Shown: positions 1,333-35,099, counted from the stretch's first letter. The stretch is 38,341 nt of DNA from Klebsiella pneumoniae (GCA_945870865.1 CAMBTO010000012.1:1-38341); one strand, 5' to 3'. The notes: generated from the sequence alone by a model not told the origin. Numbers and translations are program-made.

Positions 1333-1815
1333 TTAAACACCTTTCAACCACTCGTCCAGAAGCTCCTGCGTCAGTTTGCCACTGATACCGATACGGCTCG
1401 AGTCGGTGTCATAGATATAATTGCGCGGCAGCTCACCGAACCATTCCGGGTCGATACTGTAGCGCAGTTTTTCGATGTTCGGATCGGCAAACAACCAGGA
1501 ATCAATGTCGCCCAGACCGTGAGATTCCAGCATCGCACTGATTTCCTGCTGCTTGCTGATATCATCCGTCGATATCATCACCACATTGGCGTCCGGATGT
1601 GCCTTCTTCAGTTTGCCCAGCAAGGCCATCTCTTCATGACAGGGAAAACAGCTGATCTCCCACATAACCATCAGGAACGTCTTGCCTGCGTATTGCTGTT
1701 CGATCTGTTTCAGACTGTCTGCCCTGAAGGCCTTGTGATCAGCACTGACCGGTGCGGACAGGATCAGACTGGTACTTAAAAAAAGCGACAGACACAATTT
1801 CATTATGGTATTCAC
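1333..1815 (-). CDS. exported TlpA/thioredoxin-like protein
   Basis: Signal peptide followed by KTFLMVMWEISCFPCHEEMALL (CxxC in thioredoxin context); GTG at 1815 or ATG at 1803 possible as start. Confidence 0.75.
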   Translation of the reverse strand: MNTIMKLCLSLFLSTSLILSAPVSADHKAFRADSLKQIEQQYAGKTFLMVMWEISCFPCHEEMALLGKLKKAHPDANVVMISTDDISKQQEISAMLESHGLGDIDSWLFADPNIEKLRYSIDPEWFGELPRNYIYDTDSSRIGISGKLTQELLDEWLKGV

Positions 1816-3083
1816 TGAACACCGCCTGCACGGTTCAAGGGAATGACACGTAGTCCTTCCTTGCCGGTATGCCAGCTCAGGAATACCTGCTCACCTGCCG
1901 TAATCAACAGCGGGTGATCGGACGCGTCAGCCGTATCTGCCACCACGGAGGCTGGTTGCCAGGAAGTGCCTTCATCTACCGAGATCAATAATTTAATCGT
2001 CGTCTTTTCGCCATCAAACTGTTTCCAGACCAGATATAACCTTTCGCCAACACGGGCCAGTGATGGATGACTGGCCCCGGCCGCTGCGACCGGAAACAGG
2101 TTTTCGATCACACCCAGTTCCGGACTATAACGGCCATAATAAATTCCCTTGTTCTTGTCTCCGAGCGTGAACCAGCTCAGATGATAGGTACCGTCACTGG
2201 CCGTTACCATCGCTGGTCCATGATGAGGACAGGCCTCAATCTGCCAGTTATCATCGGTCGCACGCTGGGCCGGTGTGACCACACCGTCGGTGGCCAGTTC
2301 GGCAAATCCGTGATCGCGTGTGGTTTCATTGTAGATATGGCGCCAGAACGCGGCAACATCCCCATACTGTGTCTCGCTCAGCGCTATACGGCAGCACTCA
2401 CAACTGTAGTCAGCAACCTTGATATTTTTAGCAAAGGTCACGCCGTCATCACTCGACCATGTGTAATACAGGGCAGCACCGATATACTTGCGCCCGGCGG
2501 CTTCTGCAGCGACCATATCGCGCTTGTCCAGCCATGCCATGAAGATATTACCGGTACTCGTCACCAGCATGGATTCAAACCGATGACTGGTCGTCAGACC
2601 GTCATCATTGATCGTCCTGACCGGTTCAAACGACTTGCCACCATCAACTGAGCGGGTGAAACGGATATCACCAAAAAATGGCCCGTCAAGCACCTTGGTC
2701 CATGACACATAAACTTCACCATTACGACCGAAGGCGACCTTGGCTCGGTTCTCGCCATTGGTATAAACAGGCTCCGGCTCTGCATTCACCCTTACCGGTT
2801 CACTGAATTGTTTGCCCTGGTCATTCGACCAGGCAACATAAACATATTCACCGACGACGTAACTGACCCACAGCTTGCCATCCTTGTCGTAAGCCGTGGT
2901 TGGCGTGCGTCCACAATGTACCGACGTCACCGGTGTAAATGCACAGGGTGTTTCGGTCGCGTCCATATGCATCATCACTGGTTGACGGGCGCAACCGGCG
3001 AGCAGGAACAGCAAACCGAAGGCAACCATCCGTAGCGGATGCAGCATCGGACGAGGTACTACAGAGGGTGCCTTACAGTTCAT
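1812..3083 (-). CDS. BNR/sialidase-like beta-propeller lipoprotein with Cys motifs
   Basis: Lipobox LLAGC; repeated S.D.G..F / S.DEGTSW BNR motifs; CECCR and CPHHGP motifs. Confidence 0.75.
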   Translation of the reverse strand: MNCKAPSVVPRPMLHPLRMVAFGLLFLLAGCARQPVMMHMDATETPCAFTPVTSVHCGRTPTTAYDKDGKLWVSYVVGEYVYVAWSNDQGKQFSEPVRVNAEPEPVYTNGENRAKVAFGRNGEVYVSWTKVLDGPFFGDIRFTRSVDGGKSFEPVRTINDDGLTTSHRFESMLVTSTGNIFMAWLDKRDMVAAEAAGRKYIGAALYYTWSSDDGVTFAKNIKVADYSCECCRIALSETQYGDVAAFWRHIYNETTRDHGFAELATDGVVTPAQRATDDNWQIEACPHHGPAMVTASDGTYHLSWFTLGDKNKGIYYGRYSPELGVIENLFPVAAAGASHPSLARVGERLYLVWKQFDGEKTTIKLLISVDEGTSWQPASVVADTADASDHPLLITAGEQVFLSWHTGKEGLRVIPLNRAGGVQ

Positions 3084-3146
3084 TTTAATAACTCCCTATT
3101 ACTCATCAATCTGATCGAAATGGCTGACTGATACGATGCATCCGGA

Positions 3147-4004
3147 TTATTTCGAATGCTGGTGTTCAGCATGTTCATGCTCCGGCTTTTCAGCTGAACT
3201 GGTCACCGGCGCAGCCTCTTCTTCATGTTTGTGACTGGAATGATCGTGCTCCGGTTCCGCTACCACCTCTCCGGCGACCGTTTCGGATTCCAGGTAAGAC
3301 CATAACGAAATCTCGCCCTGCTTGCGGATAAATGACCTTCTGACGATACGGTCCTTCCACTTTGCCAGATCCGAGGGACCGTTACCGACACGACCGTGTG
3401 TATACACAGCCATCGTTTTATCGCCGATAGTAATCATAAAACTGGTGCCACCATCCGGATTGGTTTTTTCTTCAACGCTGGATACCTTGCCTACGGGTCC
3501 GATAGCTACACCTTTTTTCTCCAGCAATAAGCTACCCTCCGGGGAGATCAGACCGGCGAGGATATAACTGGCCGCCTGCGCACGTGTGGGAACGGTGGCT
3601 GCCTGTGATGCATCATGTTTGTCCTGGAAAAACAGTGTGTTGATATCGGCATAGGTGGCATTACCTTCGAGTATCATCACCAGGCCCTTTGCCTTGGCCG
3701 CGTTTGCCAGCATATTGACATCGGGCTTTTCACCCTCTGGCGCCAGCTTCGCCTCCATCGCCGCCCACACCGCCAGATCAAACCGGGACAGCTTTCTTTC
3801 CGGTTCAAAGGAGGTTGTCTCCGGGATGAAACCCAGACCAACTAGAACCAGGATATCAAACCGTGCCTCGGACGACTTGACGTCGGGGAACTGGCTGGTA
3901 TCGGTCTTGATATGTGCCATCACCGGCGTAAATGCCAGAAATGAACACAGTAATGTTATGGAAACAATGCCGGTCCTTATACATTTTGAAATTGTTTTCT
4001 TCAT
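3147..4004 (-). CDS. exported protein with SLH-like segment and His-rich C-terminus
   Basis: Signal peptide; C-terminus EPEHDHSSHKHEEEAAPVTSSAEKPEHEHAEHQHSK. Confidence 0.6.
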   Translation of the reverse strand: MKKTISKCIRTGIVSITLLCSFLAFTPVMAHIKTDTSQFPDVKSSEARFDILVLVGLGFIPETTSFEPERKLSRFDLAVWAAMEAKLAPEGEKPDVNMLANAAKAKGLVMILEGNATYADINTLFFQDKHDASQAATVPTRAQAASYILAGLISPEGSLLLEKKGVAIGPVGKVSSVEEKTNPDGGTSFMITIGDKTMAVYTHGRVGNGPSDLAKWKDRIVRRSFIRKQGEISLWSYLESETVAGEVVAEPEHDHSSHKHEEEAAPVTSSAEKPEHEHAEHQHSK

Positions 4005-4043
4005 AAAATTCTCCTGATTATCGGATTAAAAGTTCCTTCTGTA

Positions 4044-6329
4044 TCAATAGTCCAGTGCCGCCTCCAGAAAGATCGTACGCATCGGATACGGGTGATTTAC
4101 ATACGCCAGCTTGTTGAACAAATTGTCTACTGCCAGACTGAGCCTGACATTTTCGGTCAGCTTGTAGTTGGACTTCAGATTGACCATTGTATACTCGTCC
4201 ATCACCGCATAGGTCTGTCTGCCAATATCAGAATTGTCGAGTTGCTGGAACGCCTTGGTTGCATAGCGTACACCACCTCCGAAATCCCAGTCGTCGGTAA
4301 TATGATAGGTCAATATCAGATTACCCCGCCACTTGGGTAACCGGGGAAACTCTTTGCCCACGATGGCCGGATTCAGGCTGTTGCGGGTAATTTCCGATTT
4401 CATCAGCGTCAGGTTGGCGCGTATATCAAGCTTGCCATTCAGCATGCCATTCTGCGTGTAGACCGTTTCCACACCTCTGGTTTCCACCTCATCCACCGGC
4501 AGGAAGGTACGGATCAATACATTATCCACCGTTCCATTCTGACTGAAGATGACGTCCTTGATGGTTTCATAAAGAAAATTTAACCTGACATAACCGTTGC
4601 CCTCACCGATAGCACGTTCGACCATCAGGTTATGATGCAACCCGTCTTCCGGCGCGAGGTTAACATCTGCGAGTCCCGTACCCACTGTGTTACTCTCATA
4701 AGAGAACAACTCCTCCACGATCGGGAAGCGGTAGGCCTTGGCAATGGAATAGCGGAACAACCAGTCATTGCCCGGTGTATATCCGACAGAAAATTTGGGG
4801 GAGAAGTGGTTGACCGAACGATCCGCATGGTCCTGCAGATTGTTGGTGGCATAGTTATACAACATGCCATTATTACTTTCCCAGAACTCCTGACGACCAC
4901 CCACTACGACGTCCCACTGCTCCGTAACGTCCCAGCCTAACTGTGCATACAGAGAATTGGCCACTGTTTCACCACCGCTGGTATTACGTGCCGTACCAAA
5001 TACACCCGCCAGATAGTCCGGAGAATTATAGTCAGTCAGACTCAGACTGTAGTTTGCATACTGGTAACCGGTCACCAGTTCCAGATCTTCTCGTCCCAGA
5101 AATTGATCCGTCTCCACCTTGATGTCAGCAGTCTTCCAACCGATATCATCAAAATCTCGTATACGGCCAGCCGGTGTAAAAGTCGGGTCGCCTGGATGTT
5201 GCAGTGAACTGCGGGTCTCATCCTCTAAGATCTTGTAGTAGCTCAGGTTCATCTCCAGCCACCAGCTCTCGGTAACCGGTCCCTGCAACCTGCCGGCGAC
5301 CAGGATATTCTGGCGATCCGATGCATCCTCGGTAAAACTGCTACGGGTGACGTTGAATAACTGGCCTTCCGGTGTCCTGAAGTTTCCATTCCACACCGGC
5401 TGGCCGGTCGTGGTGGAAACCAGATAATTATTGACGTTATCGGTCTCGCGGACACGGTTCTCATAGGCGACATTGAACAGCGAGAACCAGTCACCGAAGT
5501 CATAACCCAACTTGACCTTGAACTGGTCGGTATTCGCCTGCTGTGTCCCGGTATCACCCCAGTTGATCACATCGGTATCGGTTGAGCTCTTGCCCGGGAT
5601 GCCGCCCGTAACCGTGTCTATCGTTCCCGTCGCCGAGGCCAGCACATTGGAGAAACGGTAATCCATCGGATGACTGTCATTTTCTAGGTGGATCCAGGAG
5701 GTATACAGACTCAGGTTTCCGAATTTGTCACCGTACGAACCAAAGACCCTGCGACCATTCAGCTTGTCCTTGAATCCGACCTCTTCATAGTCGTTCTGGA
5801 ACATTGATCCTTCCAGATGGAAGCTGCGCTCGGTCGGGATCTTCGTTTCAAAATTGACAACACCGCCCATCGCATTGCCACCGTATTCTGCAGAGAATGG
5901 CCCATAGACCACTTCGATCGTGCCAATCTCATTGGCTCCCACCAGCGCCCAGCGTGGTGAACCGTTAAATGCGGTCTGCAGAAAATAGTGCAGCGGGACA
6001 CCATCTGCGTAAACGGATGTGCGAGCAGTCTGGAACATACTGGCAGTACGCAGACCCATCATGCCATTCGGGTCGCCGATATAACGCTGACGGATGATCA
6101 GGCTTGGTTCAAACTTGAGCAAATCTTCCGTCGTCATCGGATTGATACTGACCAGATCATCCTGGCCAAGTAAAACCGTTGAACTGCTTCGGTGCGATTG
6201 GTCTACCAGTCTGCCTTGCCCGAAGACGGTGATCTCTTCCACATCTTCGTGGGCTGTAACAAACAAAGGTGTACTTCCAATGACTGCTGTCAACAATAAA
6301 TGCGACAACGCGCTTTTTTCAAGATTCAT
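4044..6329 (-). CDS. TonB-dependent outer membrane receptor
   Basis: 761 aa; plug domain (EITVFGQGR...IGTIEVVYGPFSAEYGGNAMGGVVNFETK) and C-terminal beta-barrel ending in aromatic Y. Confidence 0.92.
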   Translation of the reverse strand: MNLEKSALSHLLLTAVIGSTPLFVTAHEDVEEITVFGQGRLVDQSHRSSSTVLLGQDDLVSINPMTTEDLLKFEPSLIIRQRYIGDPNGMMGLRTASMFQTARTSVYADGVPLHYFLQTAFNGSPRWALVGANEIGTIEVVYGPFSAEYGGNAMGGVVNFETKIPTERSFHLEGSMFQNDYEEVGFKDKLNGRRVFGSYGDKFGNLSLYTSWIHLENDSHPMDYRFSNVLASATGTIDTVTGGIPGKSSTDTDVINWGDTGTQQANTDQFKVKLGYDFGDWFSLFNVAYENRVRETDNVNNYLVSTTTGQPVWNGNFRTPEGQLFNVTRSSFTEDASDRQNILVAGRLQGPVTESWWLEMNLSYYKILEDETRSSLQHPGDPTFTPAGRIRDFDDIGWKTADIKVETDQFLGREDLELVTGYQYANYSLSLTDYNSPDYLAGVFGTARNTSGGETVANSLYAQLGWDVTEQWDVVVGGRQEFWESNNGMLYNYATNNLQDHADRSVNHFSPKFSVGYTPGNDWLFRYSIAKAYRFPIVEELFSYESNTVGTGLADVNLAPEDGLHHNLMVERAIGEGNGYVRLNFLYETIKDVIFSQNGTVDNVLIRTFLPVDEVETRGVETVYTQNGMLNGKLDIRANLTLMKSEITRNSLNPAIVGKEFPRLPKWRGNLILTYHITDDWDFGGGVRYATKAFQQLDNSDIGRQTYAVMDEYTMVNLKSNYKLTENVRLSLAVDNLFNKLAYVNHPYPMRTIFLEAALDY

Positions 6330-6421
6330 AATACAAACTCAATTGTTCACAATTTGCTGTGTACACACCTGCACGCAGATGCATAAATAATCCAGTCGAA
6401 ACTACGACTGAAATCAGATTG

Positions 6422-6856
6422 TTAAATTATGAATACGACAGGAGGGGCGCGAGGCTGTTGAGGTTGTTGACGGAATAAGGGGTGGGTAAATGAAGAACTG
6501 ACGGTAACATACTGATCCGGACCTGCCGGAAACAGATGGTCACTGACAAAGGCGATTGTTTCAACAAAGGTCGAACTGGTCGACCATAAACCGCAGGTCT
6601 CACCTGCCATGCCGGCACTGGCATCTTCATCCGTTGCAGCATTGCCATGGTGTTTATGGATTGCATGCGGGTCATCTGACGGAGAACTCGTAGTTTTTCC
6701 ATTCAAGCCTTCGCAGAGGACTATAGACAAACCGAGTGGACCGTCGCCACCGGTTTCGAGCATGAAACCAGGCGCGATCAGCGCGCGCAAGCCGACTGTT
6801 ATGGCCAGTAACCATAAAAACAGACTGTTACGGTGCGCCTTGCGTATGACGTTCAT
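6422..6856 (-). CDS. DUF2946-like small membrane/periplasmic protein
   Basis: N-terminal TM (LFLWLLAITVGLRALIAPGFML), HKHH segment and C-terminal RAPP motif as in DUF2946-type proteins. Confidence 0.55.
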   Translation of the reverse strand: MNVIRKAHRNSLFLWLLAITVGLRALIAPGFMLETGGDGPLGLSIVLCEGLNGKTTSSPSDDPHAIHKHHGNAATDEDASAGMAGETCGLWSTSSTFVETIAFVSDHLFPAGPDQYVTVSSSFTHPLFRQQPQQPRAPPVVFII

Positions 6857-6973
6857 GTCTAAAGTGTATACGTTGCGATCAGGAAATTACAACTAGTATC
6901 TTATTCACAACGCTATCTTCAATAATTTTTACACAATTCTTTATACCGGCGGATCTTATGATTACACAGACAG

Positions 6974-8275
6974 TCAGTTTCCAGCATCCGGCTCAGGTAG
7001 CTTACCGGTTAACGTGTTTAAAAATGCCTCCAGATCTGTCAGTTCGGAGGACTTTAGTTTCAACGGAACGATCTCCGGCACGCGCCCATTCAGCGATCTC
7101 GCACCATTGTAATGCGCAAGGACCTCGGTCAGTGTCTTCATTTGCCCGTCGTGCATATACGGTGCGGTCTGTGCAATATTGCGCAGACCCGGAGTCTTGA
7201 ACGCGCGAAACAAACCGGATCCGGTGGCCCGGAGAAAACGCAGGTGAGTGCATTGTTCAGGACGGGCATCGCTGTAACTACCCAGACAGTTAAACGGATC
7301 CTGTTTTACCCCAACCACACCCTCTAGGCGCCCGGTGTCCTCCCCTGCTGCCGGACGTATACCGGTATTATGAAAAGAATAATTGGTCAGCAGTGGCCCG
7401 TTATGGCAGTTAATACATTGTGCCTTGCCGATAAACAGGCGCAAACCGTTCGCCTCGGCCGGGGTATAGCGGGACTCCATTGCTGCAACATCATCAGCAA
7501 GGACCGCGTTGATATAGTCATCAACGGGCGCCGGTGCAGGCATGAGCAGACGTTCATACGCCGCAATGACCTTGCCAACGTTCGCAAATATCCGGTTGAT
7601 AACATCCTGATCCGCATCAGACATGTTGTCCCAGGCCTTGTGAATTTGTGGATCATCGACTGGCCCGGCAGCCACAGGAAACCGGACCACATCACTGATA
7701 TCCGGAAACGGCCCAAAGATCGCCTCGTACTGCTGATGATACAGAGGGTCATCTTGCAACAGATGTGCAATCCGGTTGCGGTTGCTGCCATGTTCAACAC
7801 TGTTCTCCAGCGGACCCAGCGCCTGCGACCACTGGCTGTCCTTGCGGCCGTCCCAGAAAAACCAGAGGTTATAGGCGGCGCCTGTCAGCGTCATGGCATG
7901 GCGTCTGATCACGCCCACACCGTTGGCCAGGGCCAGACCGTCAGTAAAATAGAGTGAGGGCTGGTGACAGGTAGCACAGGCTACCTTGCCATTAACACTC
8001 ATACGGGCGTCGAAAAAGAGTTGCCGTCCAAGGCGGGCCGCCAGCGAATTATCTGCGACAGCATTGGAGGGATCAGGGGGCAGTGGTCGTATTTTTTCTA
8101 GCGAAAGTGTTGCAAGCAGTTTTTTTTCTGACGGCGTCCACCCATGTGGATTTACAGTTTCTATCCCGGTCTGCTGCGCACCGGTATCGCGGATCAGGAT
8201 TAACAGACAGATTGTCACACATAACAACACACTGACCAGCAATCGGGAACGACAAGCAGGCAACTGCATGAACAT
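6974..8275 (-). CDS. di-heme cytochrome c peroxidase / MauG-family protein
   Basis: Two CxxCH motifs (CATCHQP, CINCHNG) and PYMHDGQMKTLTEVLAHYN; ATG at 8275 preferred over the longer ORF start. Confidence 0.88.
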   Translation of the reverse strand: MFMQLPACRSRLLVSVLLCVTICLLILIRDTGAQQTGIETVNPHGWTPSEKKLLATLSLEKIRPLPPDPSNAVADNSLAARLGRQLFFDARMSVNGKVACATCHQPSLYFTDGLALANGVGVIRRHAMTLTGAAYNLWFFWDGRKDSQWSQALGPLENSVEHGSNRNRIAHLLQDDPLYHQQYEAIFGPFPDISDVVRFPVAAGPVDDPQIHKAWDNMSDADQDVINRIFANVGKVIAAYERLLMPAPAPVDDYINAVLADDVAAMESRYTPAEANGLRLFIGKAQCINCHNGPLLTNYSFHNTGIRPAAGEDTGRLEGVVGVKQDPFNCLGSYSDARPEQCTHLRFLRATGSGLFRAFKTPGLRNIAQTAPYMHDGQMKTLTEVLAHYNGARSLNGRVPEIVPLKLKSSELTDLEAFLNTLTGKLPEPDAGN

Positions 8276-8283
8276 GATGCGTC

Positions 8284-8790
8284 TTACTCCACTATCAGAT
8301 CCATGATTACCGTATCGGACGTACTGCCCGAAGTGATATACAACATCATCTGCCATAAGCCTGGCATATGGAAGGTCATGCCCTCTATCAGATAATCACC
8401 CTTCCCCATGTTTTTTGTCACTATCGGGACAGACGACATTTCATGATCATGGGCCGGCATGCCTCCACTCAACTCGATAACAGCATCTTCCAACGACTGA
8501 CCCTCGGCCGTCTCCACATGCACGGTCCACTGATGAAATTGATTGATAACTACCGGATTAAGGTCGCTGGTAACCAAAATCGTAAACACACCCCGGTTTG
8601 ACTTTCTGGGCGTACTCAATGCAGGTACTGTCTGATCCGCTGTATTTGTTGTGTCACCGGTATGCTCCCGGACCAGCGGCTGGTACGGTGGAACCTGGGC
8701 CGCAATCTGGCGTTGCGGCGTCAGCAACACTATAAGTATCGTTAATATAAATGCAGTTATGTTGCACAGTTTGTATGTCACGATCATCAT
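8284..8790 (-). CDS. FixH/YtkA-like exported protein
   Basis: Signal peptide; NPVVINQFHQWTVHVETAEGQSLEDAVIELSGGMPAHDH...GMTFHMPGLWQMMLYI pattern; 8 bp upstream of the di-heme gene. Confidence 0.7.
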   Translation of the reverse strand: MMIVTYKLCNITAFILTILIVLLTPQRQIAAQVPPYQPLVREHTGDTTNTADQTVPALSTPRKSNRGVFTILVTSDLNPVVINQFHQWTVHVETAEGQSLEDAVIELSGGMPAHDHEMSSVPIVTKNMGKGDYLIEGMTFHMPGLWQMMLYITSGSTSDTVIMDLIVE

Positions 8791-10409: not shown

Positions 10410-11831
10410 ATGAACAAAACAGGTGGCTATATGCAAATTAGAACAAGTCCGCCTTACACACGTGCATTAGTTCCACGGCTTTCCCGCATCGGCTTTGGCA
10501 CCCTGCTTTTGTGGTTGGTATCGGTCATACCCACACCCGCCTGGTCACATGCCAACTTACTCGAAACCGTACCTGGAAACGGCGCTGTGCTAGCTGAACC
10601 ACCTGCCACGATTTCACTCCGTTTTAACGAGCAGGTATCACCGGTACGCCTGCAATTACTTGATGGACAAGGTATACCTGTCACCCTGACACACACCGGA
10701 TCTGCAGACAACACGTTGATTTTTACACCGGCAGCGATGCCCGCAGAGGGACAATATCTACTCAGCTACCGGGTCTTGTCGATGGACGCCCAACCCATCT
10801 CCGGCAGTATCGGCTTTGCGGTCGGTGATTTGCCTGCGCCCGTGGCACATTCACTCGCAACCGCGGATATCGACACACTGTTACTGATACACAGCGTCAG
10901 GACACTGTTATTGATCTCCCTGCTCGGCTGTACCGGGCTGGTGCTGTACCCGTTATTGTTCACACATCCTGTCACGCTGGAAACCTGGCGGCGCAAATGG
11001 CTGGGCAGATTGTGTATTACCGGGATCAGTGCGGCCATCACCGGACTGGGTCTGTGGGGCGTACTGCTGGCAGAGGCGTCTCCACTGGCGTTGTTCCAGG
11101 AAGACATCTGGACACTGGCAAATTCGACATCACTGGCAAGAAGCATGGTGCTGGTCGTGTTGGGTCTGATCCTGATGTTGCTATCGATTGGTTATCCAAC
11201 CGGACTGGCGACACGACTGCTCGGCAGCGCGGGCGTGCTGATCGCCGGTATCGGTCTGGTCAGCAGCGGTCATGCCGCCGGCGCACCTGCCCTGATCGGC
11301 CCGGTGTTCCTGTTACATATCCTGCTGGCCGGAATCTGGTTCGGCTCATTGGCCATGCTGCTGGCAGTCACGTCGCAGTGCCAGGATAAAACCTTGATAC
11401 AGGTACTCAAACAATTCTCACCCCGTGCAACAACGATGGTTATCATTTTACTCATCTGCGCCGCCATCATGGGCTGGTATCAATTGGGGAGCGTCGGTGC
11501 GTTGTTTACCTCTGATTACGGTCGCTGGTTAATGCTAAAAATTGGACTGGTTACAGTAACGCTGATCCTCGCCGTATTGAACCGCTGGCGATATACGCCT
11601 GCACTTGAAGCGATGCGTCCTCATGCACGTTCACGATTACATTCCGCGATACGACTGGAAACTGCCGTCATGGTCATCGTCATTACGGTGACTACGATAC
11701 TCGCCTCCACGCCACCACCGGAAAAGACTGCGGCCCAAGCTACCATTTCAGCCAACTCTGCTGCGGATACTTCGCTCACGATTCAGGCATTAATCACACC
11801 GCCGGAACCGGCACTAATAACGTTGGAATGA
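10410..11831 (+). CDS. CopC-CopD fusion copper protein, C-terminus probably frameshifted
   Basis: SHANLLETVPGNGAVLAEPPATISLRFNEQV (CopC) followed by multi-TM CopD region (GHAAGAPALIGPVFLLHILLAGIWFGSLA). Confidence 0.85.
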   Translation: MNKTGGYMQIRTSPPYTRALVPRLSRIGFGTLLLWLVSVIPTPAWSHANLLETVPGNGAVLAEPPATISLRFNEQVSPVRLQLLDGQGIPVTLTHTGSADNTLIFTPAAMPAEGQYLLSYRVLSMDAQPISGSIGFAVGDLPAPVAHSLATADIDTLLLIHSVRTLLLISLLGCTGLVLYPLLFTHPVTLETWRRKWLGRLCITGISAAITGLGLWGVLLAEASPLALFQEDIWTLANSTSLARSMVLVVLGLILMLLSIGYPTGLATRLLGSAGVLIAGIGLVSSGHAAGAPALIGPVFLLHILLAGIWFGSLAMLLAVTSQCQDKTLIQVLKQFSPRATTMVIILLICAAIMGWYQLGSVGALFTSDYGRWLMLKIGLVTVTLILAVLNRWRYTPALEAMRPHARSRLHSAIRLETAVMVIVITVTTILASTPPPEKTAAQATISANSAADTSLTIQALITPPEPALITLE

Positions 11832-19793: not shown

Positions 19794-20990
19794 TCATTCC
19801 GGTTTTACATCGCTGACCTTCTCCAGACGTATCACCGGCGTCAATGAACCACCGCTGCGATCATCAATTATGACGTAGATAAAACCGTCAGGCCCCTGGC
19901 GCACATCGCGGATCCGACCATACCCCTGTAGCAAGGGTGGACGCTCCATCCGACCTATCTGATAGATGCCGTTTGCCTGTAACATGGGTAGTCGGTGTAA
20001 CTCCTTGCCGGAAAGACCACCTACAAACATATTACCCTGCCAGGCCGGGAATACACTGCCGGTATAAATCAACAGACCAGAGGGGGCGATAGACGGGGTC
20101 CAGTATTGTAACGGCTGTTCAAAACCTTCCTTCTCCCTGCTGGCATGAATGGCTGTACCGCCGTACATGACACCATAGCCAATGACAGGCCAGCCGTAGT
20201 TTTTACCCGGATGGATCTGGTTTAGCTCGTCACCGCCCTGGGCACCATGTTCTACCGTAAAGACATCACCCGTCTTCTGATCGATGGCCAAGCCTTGCAG
20301 ATTACGGTGACCATAACTCCAGATTTCAGGCAGCGCATCGGTGCGGCCGACGAAGGGGTTATCCTCGGGCACCCGGCCGTCATCATACAGACGGATGACC
20401 TTGCCCTGATGCAACATCAGGTTCTGTGCCGGATGTTGCTCACGTGGCACGCCGAGTGGATCAGCCGCGCGATCGCCGACGGTAATAAACAGATAGCCTT
20501 TCGGATCAAATGCCAGGCGCGAACCATAGTGACTACCACCCTCACTCCATGCCTTCGCCTCGAATATCTCCTCTACACCGCTCAGACTTTTACCGTCAAA
20601 CTTGCCACGGACGACGGCCGTTGTTCCCTGGGTTCCGTCCGCGTTCGGCTTGGAATAGCTGAGATATATCAGCTTGTTTGTCGCAAAATCAGGGTGCAGT
20701 ATCACATCGAGCAGACCACCCTGGCCCTGATAACGCACAGCAGGTGTCCCACTGACAGGTTCCGGGTCAAGCTTGCCGCTACGAACGATACGCAGTCGCC
20801 CAGGTCGTTCGGTTACCAGCATGTCGCCATTCGGTAGGAAGGTGAGAGACCAGGGGTCCTTCAGTGCCTCGATGACGGTGACGACCCGGTAGATATAATT
20901 ATCTGATTTATATTCGGTAGATTGCGCCCAGACCGGCAACACAAAACTCACCCACAGCAAACACACGATTAAATATCTGTTAATGGACAT
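19794..20990 (-). CDS. PQQ-dependent sugar (aldose/sorbosone-type) dehydrogenase, exported
   Basis: Signal peptide; DPWSLTFLPNGDMLVTERPGRLRIV, SYGHRNLQGLAIDQKTGDVFTVEHGAQGGDELNQIHPGKNYGWPVIGYG. Confidence 0.92.
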   Translation of the reverse strand: MSINRYLIVCLLWVSFVLPVWAQSTEYKSDNYIYRVVTVIEALKDPWSLTFLPNGDMLVTERPGRLRIVRSGKLDPEPVSGTPAVRYQGQGGLLDVILHPDFATNKLIYLSYSKPNADGTQGTTAVVRGKFDGKSLSGVEEIFEAKAWSEGGSHYGSRLAFDPKGYLFITVGDRAADPLGVPREQHPAQNLMLHQGKVIRLYDDGRVPEDNPFVGRTDALPEIWSYGHRNLQGLAIDQKTGDVFTVEHGAQGGDELNQIHPGKNYGWPVIGYGVMYGGTAIHASREKEGFEQPLQYWTPSIAPSGLLIYTGSVFPAWQGNMFVGGLSGKELHRLPMLQANGIYQIGRMERPPLLQGYGRIRDVRQGPDGFIYVIIDDRSGGSLTPVIRLEKVSDVKPE

Positions 20991-21115
20991 GTTTCAGACT
21001 CCTGAAAATTACGGGGTATACAGGATACTAAGGCGCCCGCCATACCACCGGTTTGAATCCGGTGATATGGCATCGGCTAATTCGACTAAACCCGTCTGCT
21101 AATGGACAGGCAAGT

Positions 21116-21637
21116 TTAACGCAAGGCAGTATTCAGCCCTGCCAGTTTGCTGGCCATATCTTCCGCCGATGTGGCTGGCTTGACTTCACGATCGATGGCA
21201 ACAATGACACCATTCGGATCGATATAGAAGGTATGACGCATTGCAAAACCGCGCTCATCGTTCAATACACCATAGGCCTTCGCGGTGTCCTTGGTCGGAT
21301 CACTTAACAACGGAAAATCGGCACTGTGCTCGGTGGCGAAGCCCTTGTTATCTTCAATCGGGTCGACACTGACCATAAAGTAGGTGTTTTTATACTTCTT
21401 CAACAGATGGCCATTTTCCGCCAGCGATTTGCACTCAATGGTGCAACCTTTTGTATACGCCTTCGGGAACCAGGCCAGTACGACCGACTCCTTGCCCTTG
21501 AAATCGGACAATTTATAGGTCTTGCCATCGGTCCCTTCCAGCTGGAAATCCGGGGCAGTATCACCTACTTCGAGGGCATGACTGATATTAGCAATTGAAA
21601 ACAGGAACAGGACCAACAGAACGCGCGTGAGCTTCAT
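21116..21637 (-). CDS. exported peroxiredoxin (AhpC/TSA, Bcp-like)
   Basis: Signal peptide; [48 protein letters not shown]. Confidence 0.88.
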
Positions 21638-21955
21638 ACAGGTATCTCCAGTTTTTGGGTAAAGGTTATTACTATAAGTATATCCTTGTTAATTTACTGA
21701 TGCGACTGTTGTTATCAGTTAAATACCCCTGAAGATAGCATGGTCTTTAATTACAACCGGCAAGGGTGCGTGTTTGCCCGGAAAATTGCTTGCAGCCCCG
21801 ATTTTCAGGTTTGTTTTAGTCCTTAGCGAATTCCCCCGGCAAGAGCTTGATCGGGATCAAATATAGCTTGATTGAATCCGGTGTATTCTGTGCTCGTCCA
21901 ACCTGATAGGCTGTAAATTGTCGGGTAAATCCAATCCATCGCGGAGAGTAAAATC

Positions 21956-22336
21956 ATGTACAAAAAACCCGATTTCAACAGACGGTTCCAAGTTCGGAAG
22001 CAAGGCTGTAACACACGGTGTGAACCTGGCCAAATCGGTAGGAGCCTCTGTCACCATCATCACCACGACCGAAATGTGGTCAGCAATTGATATGGCCAAG
22101 GCGGCCAAAAGTGGTAGCAATAACCCGATTAATGCCTATGAACAGGCCGCTGCAGAGTCTGCAAAAAAGATCCTGTCTGCTGCTGAATCCGTTGCCGCGA
22201 AGGCCGGGGTGAAGGCAGATACGATCCATATCAATGACAAACATCCGGCCGCCGTGGTATCGAAAAGGTGCTGATGGGCAGTGTTGCTTCCGAGGTTATT
22301 ACCCACAGCACTATACCGGTACTGGTTGTTAAGTAA
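21956..22336 (+). pseudogene. universal stress protein (UspA family) gene with frameshift and internal deletion
   Basis: Pieces in two frames: start ATGTACAAA (frame 2), body ISTDGSKFGSKAVTHGVNLAKSVGASVTIITTTE...INDKHPAA (frame 0), C-terminus RGIEKVLMGSVASEVITHSTIPVLVVK* (frame 2). Confidence 0.88.
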
Positions 22337-22407
22337 CTTCTGCACAAACCAGCCCTGACCTGATAGTCAGGACTGGTGTCTCACTGGCAAGTAAAAAATT
22401 CCAATAG

Positions 22408-24588
22408 CTAGGCCTGCAATGCCGCCAACACACGTTCGCGTGTAAACGGCATATGCGAAATGCGTTTGCCGGTCAGCCGGAAAAACGCCCCGGCAACCGC
22501 TGCCGCAATCGGTACATTACCAATCTCACCAAGGCCCTGCGGGCGGTCCTGTCCCGGGTCGACAAACTCGATATGGATCTGTTCCGGTGTATCGGACATG
22601 CGCATGACATTGTAGTCATGGAAATTGGTCTGCTGAACCACGCCACCTTTCACCGTGACCCTTTCATGTAACACACTGGACAATCCGTAGTTGATTCCAC
22701 TCTCGATGTTTGCACGTGCGGCGTCAGGCTGGACGACCAGACCACCATCGACCGCCATCCAGACCTTGTGGACCTTGATCTTGCCCAGCGCCTTGTTCAA
22801 CGAGGCCTCTACTACACAGGCCCCGAGTGAACCGGATCGCTCTGTGATTGATAGCCCCAGCGCACGTCCTTCAGGACGGGGTTTGTTCCATTCAGACATC
22901 GCAGCGACCTTTTCAAATACCTTGCGACCACGCGGGGTGATCGCCATCCGCTCCAGACGGAATTGAATCGGGTCGATGCCTTCGGCGACCGCCATACGAT
23001 CTATGAATTCCTCGATGGCAAAGACGTTAAACGGATGGGCAACGGCACGCCAGTGTTTCAGGCGGATGCCGTGTGATGTGCCGCGCAGGTCGATATACTG
23101 GTTTGGCACCTTGTAATAAAGGTCTATCTCCATGCCACCGGTCAGCAGGCTGGCGCCGTCACCGACGATACAATGTTTCCAACCAGTGACCTTGCCGGAG
23201 GCATCCAGCGCCGCCTCCAGGCATTGATAGTTTTGCGGACGAAACATGCCATAACCGATATCTTCCTCACGCGTCCAGATCAGCTTGACCGGTGTTTTCA
23301 CCTCGCGTGCGACCAGTGCCGCCTCAACCGCATAGTCACCCTCGGAACGGCGCCCAAATCCGCCGCCCATATAACACTGGTTTATCGTCACCTGTTTCTG
23401 ATCAAACCCGAGCGCCTGCGCCACCAGCTGACGACAGCGATCTGGCGACTGGCTGCCGTCCCACACCTCGACCTGGTCACCTGCCGCATTCAGACGCGCA
23501 ACGGCATTTAACGGCTCCATCTGGGCGTGATAACCATAATCTGCCCGGAAATCCGCCTTGTAGGTGCGTGCTGCACTGCCAAAGGCGGCATTGGCATCCC
23601 CGTTGGTAAAGACCGGTTCCGAGTTTGCGGCCGGATCGGCGTGCACCCGGACATAATCCTGTTCAAGTATGGTCTCGGAATCATATCCCGCTGAAAGCGT
23701 AGCGCCCCAGCTCACCTGTAATTGTTTACGGGCGGCCAGCACATGCGCGAACGATTCACCAACGATGGCCACACCGGTCGGTAACTTCACGGTTGCCGTG
23801 ATACCTTTCATGGCGCGGATATCGGCATCATTCCAGGCTTGCGGCGCCGCACCCTGCATCGGCGAATGGACGGTCGATGCGTACTGCATGCCCGGCAGAG
23901 ACACATCGATTGCAAATTGTGCAGTACCATTCACCTTTAACGGGATATCGCGGCGTGGCTGGGTCTTGCCGATCAGGCGGTATTGTTCCGGCTTTTTAAA
24001 ATCTGCCTCGCTGATCTCGGGTAGTTCTGTAACTTCGGCAAACTGGGCTATCTCGCCATAAGTAAGACGGCGCTGGCTTGCTGCATGAACTACGACACCG
24101 GGTTCGGTCATCAACTCGCTAACCGGTACATCCCAGTGCTTTGCAGCAGCACCCAGCAACACTTTACGCACCTGCGCCCCGGCTGTACGCATTACATCAA
24201 AATAACTGCGTACCGCACGTGAGCCGACAATGGCCATCGACTTGCGATCACCACTGCCATAACCATAGACCTGTACATCACTCGGTGCCCATTCCAGCTT
24301 CACCTTGTCCCAGTCCGCGTCCATTTCCTCAGCCAGCATCAATGGCACGCTGGTCATGGAGCCTTGCCCCATCTCTGCGCCAGGTGTATACATCGTAATG
24401 GTGTTGTCCGGGTGAATGGTCAGCCAGACCGAGATGGCGCTGCCGCCGGCCTGGGCCCTGGCCTCGGTTGCGGTGAGCAACATGCCGGCGCCGCTGCCAT
24501 TTACGGCAACGGCAAAACTGAACGCCGCCGTACCTTTCAGAAAATCACGGCGAGTAACATCTGTTTGTGGTTTGATAATCGTAGCCAT
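22408..24588 (-). CDS. Tat-exported xanthine-dehydrogenase-family molybdopterin subunit (isoquinoline 1-oxidoreductase beta-like)
   Basis: TRRDFLKGTAAFSFAVAV Tat signal; PGAEMGQGSMTSVPLMLAEEMDADW; GGGFGRRSEGDYAVEAALVA; GLGEIGNVPIAAAVAGAFF. Confidence 0.92.
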   Translation of the reverse strand: MATIIKPQTDVTRRDFLKGTAAFSFAVAVNGSGAGMLLTATEARAQAGGSAISVWLTIHPDNTITMYTPGAEMGQGSMTSVPLMLAEEMDADWDKVKLEWAPSDVQVYGYGSGDRKSMAIVGSRAVRSYFDVMRTAGAQVRKVLLGAAAKHWDVPVSELMTEPGVVVHAASQRRLTYGEIAQFAEVTELPEISEADFKKPEQYRLIGKTQPRRDIPLKVNGTAQFAIDVSLPGMQYASTVHSPMQGAAPQAWNDADIRAMKGITATVKLPTGVAIVGESFAHVLAARKQLQVSWGATLSAGYDSETILEQDYVRVHADPAANSEPVFTNGDANAAFGSAARTYKADFRADYGYHAQMEPLNAVARLNAAGDQVEVWDGSQSPDRCRQLVAQALGFDQKQVTINQCYMGGGFGRRSEGDYAVEAALVAREVKTPVKLIWTREEDIGYGMFRPQNYQCLEAALDASGKVTGWKHCIVGDGASLLTGGMEIDLYYKVPNQYIDLRGTSHGIRLKHWRAVAHPFNVFAIEEFIDRMAVAEGIDPIQFRLERMAITPRGRKVFEKVAAMSEWNKPRPEGRALGLSITERSGSLGACVVEASLNKALGKIKVHKVWMAVDGGLVVQPDAARANIESGINYGLSSVLHERVTVKGGVVQQTNFHDYNVMRMSDTPEQIHIEFVDPGQDRPQGLGEIGNVPIAAAVAGAFFRLTGKRISHMPFTRERVLAALQA

Positions 24589-24590
24589 AT

Positions 24591-25043
24591 TTAACCCTCC
24601 ACCGCTGCACGCTCTATCGCGGCTATTATCCGGTTGTAGGTGCCACACCGGCAGATATTGCCATCCATGTGGGTAATGATTTCATCGCGGGACGGTTTCG
24701 GGTTTGCACTCAACAACTCCGCCGCCTTCATGATCTGACCGGACTGGCAATATCCACATTGCGGGACCTGCTCGACTACCCAGGCCTTTTGTAAGGGATG
24801 GGATGCATCGGGCGACAGTCCCTCGATGGTGACGATATTACTTCCCGCTACATCACTGACTTTAATCGCACAGGAGCGCAAGGCCTTGCCATCTATATGG
24901 ACGGTACAGGCGCCACACAGGCCGGCACCACAACCGTATTTTGTACCGGTAAGATTAATGTGATCCCGGAGGACCCAGAGCAAGGGAGTATCGTTGTCGA
25001 CCTCAAGCGATACCGGATTGCCGTTCAGGGTAAATTCAAGCAT
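24591..25043 (-). CDS. (2Fe-2S)-binding subunit (isoquinoline 1-oxidoreductase alpha-like)
   Basis: [20 protein letters not shown] and [11 protein letters not shown]...[18 protein letters not shown] at 25043. Confidence 0.93.
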
Positions 25044-25169: not shown

Positions 25170-26720
25170 CTACTCTCCGGTGGGGGCCTCCGCCTCGGAC
25201 ATCCTGACAGTTCTTGGTTTGGCACCCAGTTTGACCAAAAGTTCTGCTGTGCTGGCATGATGGCCATACAGACCCCGGCTACCATAATCCGGGCTGATAC
25301 CGGATGCCATCGTCCACGGTGTTTCACCCTCCTCATTCACAGGGTCAATACCCGCACCGTTGTCTGCCAGATACTGCACCACGGAATCTGCGCCAGTAAA
25401 TGCAGCAATATGCATCGCTGTTCTACCCGTAGCGTCAACCGCATTGATGTCTACACCCAGCTTCAGCACTTCCTTAACGGTAACCAGCGCCTGGTCGATG
25501 TTTTCCCGGTTAGCGATATTTCCACCGGCCTGATAAGCGCAGGTTCCTGTACAAGCCACCTGGGCCGCTGCCATCAGTAACGTAATTCCCTGCTCATTTT
25601 TGATGGCGGGGTTTGCGCTGGATTTCAACAAAATCTGCATCATACGGGCCTCGGCCGAGGCCGTAGCAAGTAACAGCGGTGTGGCGCCGGCCATCGTAAA
25701 CGGATAGCCGTCTGGCCCCAATAGTTGTTCTTCACGGATTTGTACGTCTGGATCCGCCCCGGCCTGCAGTAAGGCCTCGGCCAGCCGGTACTGATTCCGT
25801 GGACGCAGACGGTAGACATTATCGTAGATAACCCCGTTTAACAGGGACAGTCCACTGCCTACCGCATGGTGCAGGGCGGTAATGCCGTTTTCATCGGCCG
25901 ACTTGATATCAGCACCGCGTTCGATCAAATAAAGGGCGAGGTCTTCGTGACCGCCAGCGCTGGCGATTACCAAGGAGTTCCCCTGTAGCAGGGTCGACTC
26001 ATTCGGGTCTGCACCGGCATCCAGCAAGGTTTTTGCCATCTCGATATCACCGGAGCGCGCAGCAAACAATAAGGCGGTGAAATCCCCGGAGGACACCTTC
26101 CAGTCACAAACACGACAGGTACCTGGTAACGTGGCTACCCCGGGCCGGGTACGTGTATGGAGATCAGCGCCACGCTGCAGTAACAAATCGACAATATCGG
26201 CATGTCCGGCGGCGGCAGCCCACATCAACGCGGTCTGCCCGCTTTCCGCCTCTGCATGATTCACATCCGCACCGGCATCCAGCAACAGAACGGCTGCCTC
26301 ACGCGCCCCGGTCCGCGCGCAATTCATCAGCACTGACTCACCCGACAAAAGTCCGGCATTCACATTTACAGCAGCCTGGAACAAGGCCTGCACCATCGCC
26401 GTGCTGCGGTTCGTGCAGGCCAGATACAACGGCGATACACCATATTCATTCACTGTATCCGGTCTGGCGCCGGACTGCAGCAAACGTGTCGCCAGCTCGA
26501 CATCATCATGTAAGACAGCCCAGTGCAGCGCCGTGGTCCCGTCCGGCATCGTGGCATTTACATCAACGGATTCATCCAGCAACACACGGACCGCCACGCG
26601 GTCACCTGACTTTACCGATTCAATCAGGGTTAAACCTGACGCAGCTGCCAGAGACAGACCCGGTATCAGCAATGACAGCATCACAGAACTGCGGGACAGC
26701 AACGACAACAATCGTGTCAT
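25170..26720 (-). CDS. exported ankyrin-repeat protein (module A)
   Basis: Signal peptide MTRLLSLLSRSSVMLSLLIPGLSLAAA; many ankyrin repeats (DGTTALHWAVLHDDVELATRLLQSGARPD); ATG 26720 with upstream acagga, longer start 26750 possible. Confidence 0.88.
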   Translation of the reverse strand: MTRLLSLLSRSSVMLSLLIPGLSLAAASGLTLIESVKSGDRVAVRVLLDESVDVNATMPDGTTALHWAVLHDDVELATRLLQSGARPDTVNEYGVSPLYLACTNRSTAMVQALFQAAVNVNAGLLSGESVLMNCARTGAREAAVLLLDAGADVNHAEAESGQTALMWAAAAGHADIVDLLLQRGADLHTRTRPGVATLPGTCRVCDWKVSSGDFTALLFAARSGDIEMAKTLLDAGADPNESTLLQGNSLVIASAGGHEDLALYLIERGADIKSADENGITALHHAVGSGLSLLNGVIYDNVYRLRPRNQYRLAEALLQAGADPDVQIREEQLLGPDGYPFTMAGATPLLLATASAEARMMQILLKSSANPAIKNEQGITLLMAAAQVACTGTCAYQAGGNIANRENIDQALVTVKEVLKLGVDINAVDATGRTAMHIAAFTGADSVVQYLADNGAGIDPVNEEGETPWTMASGISPDYGSRGLYGHHASTAELLVKLGAKPRTVRMSEAEAPTGE

Positions 26721-26739
26721 TTGATTTATCCTGTCCGTC

Positions 26740-28083
26740 TCAACCTGCATTCAACAGATTCAGACTGCCATTGCTGTCACCGAACCTGTCCACCGGCAGA
26801 TCCAGTTTATCCAGGAGGGTCAGATACAGGTTCGTCATCGGTGTCTTGTCCGGATAACGCAGGTGCATACCCCCCTGCAGATGACCGCTGCCGCCACCGA
26901 GCAGCACGACCGGCAGGTTTTGCAGCGCGTGCGCATTACCGTCACTGATCGAACTGCCAAACATGACCATGATATTGTCAAACAGCGAGCCGTCCACATC
27001 TGGCGTGGCACGCAGACGGTCCAGATAATAGGTCAGCAACGAGACATGATAATTGTCAATCTTTGCCAGTTTTTCCAGATTGCCCGGGTCGTTACGGTGG
27101 TGTGATATCGAATGATGGACATCGGGCACCCCGATCTGCGGGTAGGTGCGGTTGCTCTGTTCCGGGGCCATCATAAACGTAATCATGCGCGTCATGTCGG
27201 TCTGGAATGCGAGTATCTGCAGGTCAAACATCAGTTTCAGATGTTCGGTAAACTCCGGCGGGATACCGGCGGGACGCTCCATCGCGGGAAGTTCGCGCGC
27301 GGACTGCTGTTCGGCCATCTGGATCCGCCGTTCGACATCACGCATACCATCGAGGTACTGTGACAGGCGGGCACGGTCAGCTGCGCCGACATGACCCATC
27401 ATGGCAGTCGCCTCGGCAGTGATGTCGTCAAGTATACTTTTTTCCTTGTGTATCCGTGTCAGACGATCTGCGGTATTGGTGCTGTTACTCGCGCCGAACA
27501 GACGTTCGAACACGGCCCGTGGGCGATATTCCACCGGCAACGGTGTCGAGGGCGTACGCCAGGACAAGGTATTCATAAAGGCACAACTCCAGCCTTTTTC
27601 ACAATTACCTGCCACGTCCTTGCTGTGCAGTCCGAGTTCCAGTGAGGCGAGCTGGGTTTGCTTGCCGAGTTCATGAGCAATGATCTGATCGATTGAAATA
27701 CCGGTGATACCTTCACTCTTCGGATGCACACCGGTCAGGAATACACCGCCGGCCCGTTCATGTGGTGCAGTCTCGCCCTCGCCTGGCAGGGCATTACCGG
27801 CGCTGTTGCACAGACCGGTCAATACCAGCATGTTCTCGCGATAGGCGGCAAGCGGTTGTAACGTCCGCGACAGTTCGTAGGACTTGCCGGTGGCTGCCGG
27901 AGTCCAGTGCGCCATGTTCATGCCGTTCGGCGAGTATATAATTGACATGCGGCGTGGGGCCTGTGTCTGACGGTCTGGACTAGCCAGCACCGGTATCATT
28001 GCGTCCAGCATCGGTAAGGCCACGGCCGCGCTGGCGCCGCGCAAAAAGGTACGACGCGCCATTGGTTTCCTAGTTATCAGCAT
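26740..28083 (-). CDS. DUF1552-domain protein, Tat-exported (module A)
   Basis: MARRTFLRGASAAVALPMLDAMIP; SIIYSPNGMNMAHWTP; PHERAGGVFLTGVHP; TFMMAPEQSNRTYPQIGVPDVHHSISHH. Confidence 0.88.
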   Translation of the reverse strand: MLITRKPMARRTFLRGASAAVALPMLDAMIPVLASPDRQTQAPRRMSIIYSPNGMNMAHWTPAATGKSYELSRTLQPLAAYRENMLVLTGLCNSAGNALPGEGETAPHERAGGVFLTGVHPKSEGITGISIDQIIAHELGKQTQLASLELGLHSKDVAGNCEKGWSCAFMNTLSWRTPSTPLPVEYRPRAVFERLFGASNSTNTADRLTRIHKEKSILDDITAEATAMMGHVGAADRARLSQYLDGMRDVERRIQMAEQQSARELPAMERPAGIPPEFTEHLKLMFDLQILAFQTDMTRMITFMMAPEQSNRTYPQIGVPDVHHSISHHRNDPGNLEKLAKIDNYHVSLLTYYLDRLRATPDVDGSLFDNIMVMFGSSISDGNAHALQNLPVVLLGGGSGHLQGGMHLRYPDKTPMTNLYLTLLDKLDLPVDRFGDSNGSLNLLNAG

Positions 28084-33431: not shown

Positions 33432-35099
33432 TTATTGCCCGGACATGTTCCGATATTTACCGGTAAATGGTTTTGCACCGAGCTCCAACAATAATTCAAC
33501 CATCTCCTTGTCTTCATTCATACCGGCATTATTGGTAGCACGGCGATATCGATGGTCATAATCGCCATCGCCAATATTACGGTAGTAACGACCTTCAGGA
33601 TCACCCATCGCAAGCATCAGCGGTGTCATGCCGTATCGATCTTTCGCATTGATATCAGCACCATTTTCAACCAGGAAACGTGTCAAATCAAGCCAGCCTA
33701 CAGTTACGGCAAAATGCAGTGCCGTCCTGCCATCGGCAACACCTTTCGCGGGGCCATCAGGGGCAGGTTCTGTCAACTGATCCTTGACACTGCCACCCAG
33801 CGTAAGTACGAGTTTCGCCGCATCAATAGCTTCCTGCTCACTTCGTGCACCACGCTCGGCACCGGCGCCGGATGCAAGCATAAATAATGTCGCACCACCT
33901 GCTGTGGTTGCCTTTATATCGGAAACTTCTTCAAGTATTTCCATCGCCTCCATATTGCCGGCCGCCGCAGCTATCAATAACGGCGTTGCTCCTACAGGAT
34001 CAATCTGCGGGGGGTCATCATCAGAAATGGCCATAAACGGATTATCCAGGTACGGATAGGAATATTTAATGCGAACATTCGGATCTGCACCGTGGTCCAG
34101 CAGTGCATTAACCAGTTTCACCATGTCCGGGCGTTTCCAGGCAGGACGATCAACCGCAGAAGGTCTGAATCCATTCAGGAACAACAAACCGTTATGCAGT
34201 GCAAAATGCAGCGGGGCAACACCCCAGGCATCGGTAATATTCGGGTCAGCGCCCTTGTCGAGCAAAAAGCTTGCGAGTGCTTCATGTCCGCTGGCAATCG
34301 CGATTATTAACGGGCTTCCATGTTCAGCGTGTGGAGTATTAACATCCGCACCTGCGTCCAGCAAGACACGAGCAGAATCAACGTCACCCTGTTGAGCAGC
34401 AAAATGAAGCGCAGTGAATCCGCCCGATACCTTGGCAAAGCGGACGGAAGCCGGATAATTACCACCCCACACACTCCTGCCTGCAGGTAGTTTGATGACA
34501 TACGGTTCCGGTTCAGGCGTCAGTTTCGAACGCGCATGCACATCGGCACCCTTGTCAACGAGGGCCTTGACTATATCACTGTGCTGTTCTGCCACCGCCC
34601 ACATCAAGGCGGTCTGCTCGTCCTTGTTTTCCCTGGCATTCACCTCTGCACCATGTTCAAGCAACAGTATTACAGCTTCTTTTGCACCGACATTTGCACA
34701 TACCATCAATGGTGTAACACCGGTTGTTTTTGCCAGATCCGGATTCGCATCCGCTTCAAGCAGGCTTTTCACAATTGTGGAATTACCATTCTCACAGGCC
34801 AATGACAACGGACTGACACCGAGATCATCCGCGATATTGACATCAGCGTCATTACGTAACAACAGATCTACAGCCTGCTGATCATTGTTATAAACGGCCC
34901 AGGCCAGGGCAGTCGTTCCATCCCCGCGCATCGTATTTACATCACGGCTGGCCTTACCCTTCAACAGTGACTGCAGGGCAGCAATATCACCATCCCTTGC
35001 CGCATCCAGCAATTGCAGTTGATCAGCCCAGGTAGAACTTCCCGTCAGACACAAGACTGCCAATGAACACATCTGTACACTTCTTATCAACTGAAACAT
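33432..35099 (-). CDS. exported ankyrin-repeat protein (module B)
   Basis: Signal peptide (MCSLAVLCLTGSSTWA) and multiple ankyrin repeats (DGTTALAWAVYNNDQQAVDLLLRNDADVN). Confidence 0.88.
   Translation of the reverse strand: MFQLIRSVQMCSLAVLCLTGSSTWADQLQLLDAARDGDIAALQSLLKGKASRDVNTMRGDGTTALAWAVYNNDQQAVDLLLRNDADVNIADDLGVSPLSLACENGNSTIVKSLLEADANPDLAKTTGVTPLMVCANVGAKEAVILLLEHGAEVNARENKDEQTALMWAVAEQHSDIVKALVDKGADVHARSKLTPEPEPYVIKLPAGRSVWGGNYPASVRFAKVSGGFTALHFAAQQGDVDSARVLLDAGADVNTPHAEHGSPLIIAIASGHEALASFLLDKGADPNITDAWGVAPLHFALHNGLLFLNGFRPSAVDRPAWKRPDMVKLVNALLDHGADPNVRIKYSYPYLDNPFMAISDDDPPQIDPVGATPLLIAAAAGNMEAMEILEEVSDIKATTAGGATLFMLASGAGAERGARSEQEAIDAAKLVLTLGGSVKDQLTEPAPDGPAKGVADGRTALHFAVTVGWLDLTRFLVENGADINAKDRYGMTPLMLAMGDPEGRYYRNIGDGDYDHRYRRATNNAGMNEDKEMVELLLELGAKPFTGKYRNMSGQ

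Follow-up and report, generated by a model that had tools for sequence, protein, structure and literature searches.

A candidate copper-import operon with a variant CruR-type DUF2946 leader, a TonB receptor, a four-cysteine BNR lipoprotein and a TlpA-like thioredoxin

We analysed a 38,341-nucleotide stretch of DNA listed under Klebsiella pneumoniae (GCA_945870865.1 CAMBTO010000012.1:1-38341), here referred to as the window, which makes up contig C12 of a genome assembled into 97 contigs (2.17 Mb). The subject is a line of seven consecutive open reading frames (ORFs) on the minus strand (1333-8790), part of which may form a copper-import operon. Families were assigned by Pfam profile search against the cut-off bit scores, and NCBIfam models were also run. 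In the order of transcription, the line begins with an exported YtkA-domain protein (8284-8790; 46.9 bits, cut-off 25.9) directly upstream of a di-heme MauG/CCP-type enzyme with two CXXCH motifs (6974-8275; CCP_MauG 128 bits, cut-off 25.6). A DUF2946 protein of 144 amino acids follows (6422-6856), at which the match is marginal (23.9 bits, cut-off 23.7) and class relatives reach up to 59 bits; then come a TonB-dependent outer-membrane receptor of 761 amino acids (4044-6329; barrel 139.5 bits, Plug 42.2 bits) and an exported 285-residue protein with a His-rich tail and no Pfam match (3147-4004). The last two genes encode a BNR beta-propeller lipoprotein of 423 amino acids with the lipobox LAGC (1812-3083) and a TlpA-like periplasmic thioredoxin of 160 amino acids with a CFPC active site (1333-1815), both slightly below their cut-offs (BNR_2, 30.4 against 31.4 bits; AhpC-TSA/TlpA-like, 25.5 against 26 bits). 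The first-pass annotation had named the same families in the same line, with a CopC-CopD gene about 1.6 kb away, and it was right on both, three of the family calls being marginal.

Two units are probable among the seven genes: YtkA-MauG and, following a gap of 117 bp, DUF2946-TonB-(His protein)-BNR-TlpA. The DUF2946 gene and the receptor gene are separated by 92 nucleotides (6330-6421), while the BNR and TlpA genes overlap by 4 bp. It is more likely that the MauG gene starts near 8275 than at 8356. Sigma-70 promoters showed no excess over shuffled sequences at the operon. The CopC (62.4 bits) and CopD (74.4 bits) matches lie in a single plus-strand ORF (10410-11831), 1.6 kb from the cluster, and this fusion gene, which is also found near the operon in loci L049 and L050, is probably a separate unit.

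The DUF2946 gene is a CruR-type leader and regulator, and not a structural part of the system. In Bordetella pertussis, the DUF2946 protein CruR heads a receptor operon, and its RAPP motif is required for downstream expression without copper, its CXXC motif for the copper shut-off, with termination being Rho-dependent (PMC9426467); arrest at RAPP was demonstrated in vitro, RGPP being likewise strong (PMC12992588). The leader in the window likewise comes first in its unit, just ahead of the TonB receptor gene, and carries a signal peptide, C48, a His-rich stretch and C88, and it terminates in RAPP-VVFII, with RAPP at residues 136-139 of 144, five residues before the end. Every leader of its group has RAPP or RGPP 4-5 residues before the end. 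In place of CXXC the window has CGLW, a lone cysteine at the position of the first Cys, and thus we filed the leader as a CruR variant and not as a standard CruR. Within its family the second Cys position is occupied by Trp or Ala (CGLW, CSFW, CSHW, CGFW, CSVA), and the last Cys stands 47-48 residues from the Arg (48 from C88 to R136 in the window); in canonical CXXC leaders of other gammaproteobacteria, the first Cys and the Arg are mostly 47-50 residues apart (53 in one). Only L17, R24, G30, C48, H67, C88, R136, P138 and P139 are invariant among six leaders that are 28-92% identical to that of the window. The invariance of C48 in this family suggests, from the alignment, that the metal site of the leader may have been rebuilt.

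Leaders of the CxxW type were also seen in front of other receptors. Locus L052 (7891-13264) carries a tandem of DUF2946 (RAPP), an OprC-like receptor, a second DUF2946 (RGPP) and a receptor of the same clade as in the window (clade A, described below), followed by a BNR-TlpA fusion. In L115 (3172-5828), from a genome of the same family, a CxxW DUF2946 leader directly precedes an OprC-like receptor, which shares 67% identity with its L052 counterpart; a gene for a di-heme peroxidase is close by. The OprC model TIGR01778 was the best model for both receptors, at 196 and 208 bits (L052 and L115, respectively), under its cut-off. The position of CxxW leaders before OprC-like receptors ties this leader type to copper. 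No plasmid relatives of the leader were found.

The 80-nucleotide segment with the maximum of C over G in the whole 7.4-kb operon (6417-6496; 31 C, 6 G) lies on the RAPP codons and is a candidate Rho loading (rut) site. The maximum was at the 3′ end in all 7 leader genes examined, and the excess over synonymous codons drawn from local usage had a P of 0.005 in the window, 0.003 in L050 and 0.032 in L052b, which makes a Rho-type mechanism plausible. A stem-loop was also predicted near the stop codon of the leader (6412-6391). The hairpin recurs only in the closest relative, and an intrinsic attenuator between leader and receptor was therefore set aside.

Downstream of the leader, the conserved part of the cluster is the order receptor, BNR, TlpA. 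We surveyed 24 gammaproteobacterial loci (L049-L072) with a BNR homologue of at least 30% identity, among which L053 and L055 end at contig ends. A TonB receptor lies directly upstream in the same direction in 19 of them, counting L055 with its intervening hemerythrin gene, and a TlpA gene lies directly downstream of the BNR gene, or is fused to it, in 20. The same order is found again across Gammaproteobacteria even where sequence identity is low, so the linkage is not due to chance. In L052 and L064 the BNR and TlpA parts are found in one ORF, which is strong evidence that both work together, and TonB, ExbB or ExbD genes adjoin the module in seven loci (L056, L058, L059, L061, L065, L066 and L069). 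L071 (1510-3177) and L072 (7369-9592) have kept BNR and TlpA together but have no adjoining TonB receptor; the receptor is thus less constant than the pair. At the genome level, the receptor was detected at E ≤ 1e-40 in 5 of 53 genomes of the order, all 5 with a BNR protein of at least 45% identity, and, across the class, 34 of 369 genomes gave a BNR match, which was strong in about 20. The closest relative of the locus, carried by L012 (CAMDWI010000011.1), has a BNR protein 92% and a receptor 97% identical to those of the window, and the His-tailed protein is present only in the window and its closest relative L049.

Several other genes stand within or beside the module in single loci. A hemerythrin gene lies between receptor and BNR in L055 (1515-1907), a cation-efflux (CDF) gene lies upstream of the module in L056 (5305-6189), and a copper-translocating ATPase was detected at L061 (TIGR01511, 590 bits). 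Redox two-component genes resembling ActS/PrrB/RegB and ActR/PrrA/RegA stand beside the module in four loci with clade B receptors (L059, 10597-12409; L061, 11041-12911; L065, 11485-13370; L070, 3161-4965); the RegA assignments all come from NCBIfam, and the kinases at L061 and L065 were recognised through Pfam alone.

BNR-TlpA is accompanied by receptors of two groups, which have little or no similarity to each other. In a tree of 33 sequences, at which CrtA was represented by the stand-ins L107 and L112 (DUF2946-receptor-PepSY_TM), clade A, with the receptor of the window, had 100/100 support and a long stem and stood weakly (65/61) beside OprC-type receptors, while clade B was nearer to PqqU and to those receptors that have PepSY_TM next in line. 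Neither clade grouped with FepA, CirA or BtuB, so that the clustering with siderophore or cobalamin receptors that would have spoken against the first-pass annotation was not seen, nor was the lack of conserved linkage that would also have done so; a siderophore or B12 receptor is unsupported by the models as well. Membership in OprC was rejected by a TIGR01778 score of 29.4 bits (cut-off 472.45) and the separate clade, and membership in CrtA by the position apart from both stand-ins. PepSY_TM does not follow the receptor in the window, where the His-tailed protein and the BNR protein stand instead. Two unrelated receptor clades with the same pair indicate that BNR-TlpA is constant and the receptor exchanged. 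The structure model of the receptor was of low confidence (predicted local distance difference test, pLDDT, 59) and was not used.

In contrast to the receptor, the AlphaFold model of the BNR protein is a confident propeller (pLDDT 88.5). C228, C230, C231, R248, R256, D257, W280, C285 and P286 are invariant in 29 BNR sequences, some of them about 20% identical, and H288 is nearly so. Judged by strand order in the model, the two cysteine sites probably lie in successive interblade loops and hence on the same face. Fold search returned sialidases, lectins and a lyase at a template modelling score of about 0.5 (sialidase-like propellers about 0.4-0.6, 10-16% identity), matches which inform on fold and not on function; the BNR protein had no NCBIfam match, and no solved relatives of the BNR or YtkA proteins were found by sequence. 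Distant homologues annotated as 'sialidase family protein' are located in copper islands of Pseudosulfitobacter, Roseovarius, Roseobacter and Adhaeribacter, where their neighbours are copper ATPases, copper oxidases, plastocyanin, CopC/CopD or CusA; those of Marinovum, with two multicopper oxidase genes a few kb off, and of Spirosoma are less telling. In the TlpA protein, W52, C56, C59 and P130 are invariant in 20 sequences, and the CXXC of thioredoxins is intact.

Taken together, we read the second unit as a copper-import operon under CruR-type control, with a probability of roughly 0.6. When copper is poor, a ribosome on the DUF2946 leader would stall at RAPP and cover the C-rich stretch, and transcription would continue into the receptor, BNR and TlpA genes. 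When copper is rich, the nascent leader would bind copper through C88 together with C48 and/or H67 in place of a CXXC, the stall would be relieved, and Rho would terminate transcription ahead of the receptor. The receptor would carry a copper complex into the periplasm, where the four-cysteine propeller lipoprotein may accept or pass on the copper, with TlpA perhaps holding its cysteines reduced. The genome has two heme-copper oxidase (COX1) genes and thus needs copper; as CrtA supplies the heme-copper oxidases of B. pertussis (PMC12914433), providing the oxidases with copper would be a reasonable purpose for the operon. The link to copper drawn by the first-pass annotation is borne out by the RAPP-ended DUF2946, a known copper leader, by its relatives before OprC-like receptors and by BNR homologues among copper genes. 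The annotation had the genes right; it missed DUF2946 as a regulator and receptor-BNR-TlpA as the core.

Several points weigh against this reading. The metal itself is one that we infer, and the receptor belongs to neither of the known copper-receptor families, OprC and CrtA. The CXXC that CruR needs is not intact in the leader, and CruR could do without its semiconserved cysteine C51, which probably corresponds to C48 (PMC9426467). A RAPP leader precedes the BNR-TlpA module solely in the family of the window, as none was found before the receptors of the other module loci. The C-over-G excess was not significant in 3 of 6 leaders (P 0.18-0.29) and thus partly reflects amino-acid content, so that it serves as supporting evidence only. 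Finally, the copper islands of the distant BNR homologues are resistance islands, and the propeller could serve detoxification.

This last point leads to an operon for copper protection or cuproprotein maturation, in which copper would prolong the stall, as in CutF, and turn the downstream genes on. CutF is also a DUF2946 protein and its expression effect is positive with copper (PMC9973294), and the stem-loop near the leader stop codon would suit such a mechanism. We consider this unlikely, as the DUF2946 leader before a TonB receptor is off with copper where tested (PMC9426467), the C-rich tail is present in all leaders whereas the stem-loop is not, and a TonB receptor with dedicated TonB/ExbBD favours import. 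That the imported metal or metal chelate is zinc, nickel, cobalt or iron, with a borrowed copper signature, appears rather improbable: the loss of CXXC, the His-rich stretch, a receptor that is not a known copper receptor and the cation-efflux gene of L056 would fit it, and His-only DUF2946 clusters do neighbour Ni/Co genes (PMC9973294), but CxxW leaders precede the OprC-like receptors of L052 and L115 and the BNR relatives accompany copper genes. A BNR protein without metal, in which the cysteines form disulphides or a catalytic site and TlpA is a folding or redox partner in another uptake task, likewise has only a small chance. TlpA-type thioredoxins do act on disulphides, and the fold matches are enzymes and lectins; CxCC...CP would, however, be odd as a disulphide pattern, it is kept while the remainder drops to about 20% identity, no NCBIfam enzyme model matched, and the genomic company is again that of copper genes.

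Uptake of methanobactin or another chalkophore, with the MauG-type enzyme maturing YtkA as a copper-binding partner in the way of MbnP/MbnH or CorA/CorB, is very unlikely. In its favour, the MauG gene comes straight after that of a small exported protein, MbnPH-like genes have been reported near DUF2946 genes, and the enzyme does score on the MbnH model (TIGR04039), at 136.1 bits. Its nearest solved relatives are di-heme peroxidases, the C-terminal half being nearest to BthA (6e1c) and sharing its Tyr in the alignment. The enzyme is, however, below the MauG and MbnH cut-offs (362.85 bits for MbnH), YtkA had no NCBIfam match and hence none to the MbnP model TIGR04052, and MbnB (PF05114) had no match in the whole genome. 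Both genes are present in the window, L049 and L050 and missing from L051 and from every locus farther off; they are accessory to the core. Thus the analogy to methanobactin loci drawn earlier is not supported, and a methanobactin locus was rejected for want of an MbnB-family gene. As a speculation, MauG and YtkA may be a modification pair.

Returning to the copper-import operon, a further and more tentative proposal, to which we give somewhat less than an even chance, is that BNR (CxCC...CPHH) and TlpA act in the periplasm as a copper acceptor and a reductase, a new kind of pair able to work with various TonB receptors. Together they would form a third way of importing copper across the outer membrane, alongside OprC and CrtA, and in the lineage of the window control would lie with a leader whose copper site has been rebuilt from C48, H67 and C88. 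Outer-membrane copper import is poorly understood and few receptor families are known. A module of receptor, Cys-propeller and thioredoxin, annotated until now as 'sialidase' or hypothetical, would supply a periplasmic partner of the receptor, and so a step that is missing downstream of OprC and CrtA. As natural variants of the CruR sensor, the CxxW leaders make the copper-sensing mechanism directly testable; C48 should be essential here.

Elsewhere in the window, a glucose/sorbosone-type pyrroloquinoline quinone dehydrogenase-like gene and a molybdopterin aldehyde or xanthine dehydrogenase-like gene (19794-24648) were detected, both below the model cut-offs. Two minus-strand ORFs (25170-26750 and 33432-35099) have ankyrin-repeat matches and resemble named families weakly, with all scores far below the cut-offs.

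Among known systems, methanobactin operons with MbnT, MbnP and MbnH (PMC3621798) likewise combine a TonB receptor with a nearby MauG-like di-heme enzyme and a small partner that is exported, but the window has no MbnB, fails the MbnH and MbnP models, and its MauG-YtkA pair is not conserved with the core. The 'sialidase family protein' of Roseobacteraceae and Adhaeribacter is a propeller of this family and has both the CxCC and the CP cysteines, but is about 20-25% identical and stands among copper ATPases and oxidases with no TonB receptor or TlpA adjoining. OprC-type receptors (TIGR01778) resemble the receptor of the window in lying under a DUF2946 leader and are weakly nearest in the tree, whereas the score (29 bits against 472) and the long-stemmed clade set the latter apart. 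CutF of the Rhodobacter capsulatus cutFOG operon (PMC9973294) is a DUF2946-family leader with a signal peptide, a Cys metal site and a Pro-rich end; in the window, unlike cutFOG, a receptor and not a multicopper oxidase lies downstream, the end is RAPP, and no conserved stem-loop covers the next ribosome-binding site. A search of the open-access literature for copper or TonB in connection with the BNR-TlpA pair returned nothing relevant; that module in particular, but also the receptor clade and the CxxW sensor, appears to be undescribed in the open literature searched. The closest system is CruR-crtA(bfrG)-PepSY_TM of B. pertussis (PMC9426467, PMC12914433), which shares the first-position DUF2946 leader with its C-terminal RAPP directly upstream of a TonB-dependent receptor, the Cys-to-RAPP spacing and the C-rich region in the leader. 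The window differs from it by CxxW for CXXC, the invariant C48 and H67, the receptor clade, a gap of 92 instead of 162 bp, and BNR-TlpA downstream in place of PepSY_TM, a gene that comes next in over 75% of CrtA loci. The operon would be, in this comparison, a CruR-headed copper import system of variant build, whose principle of control is already known.

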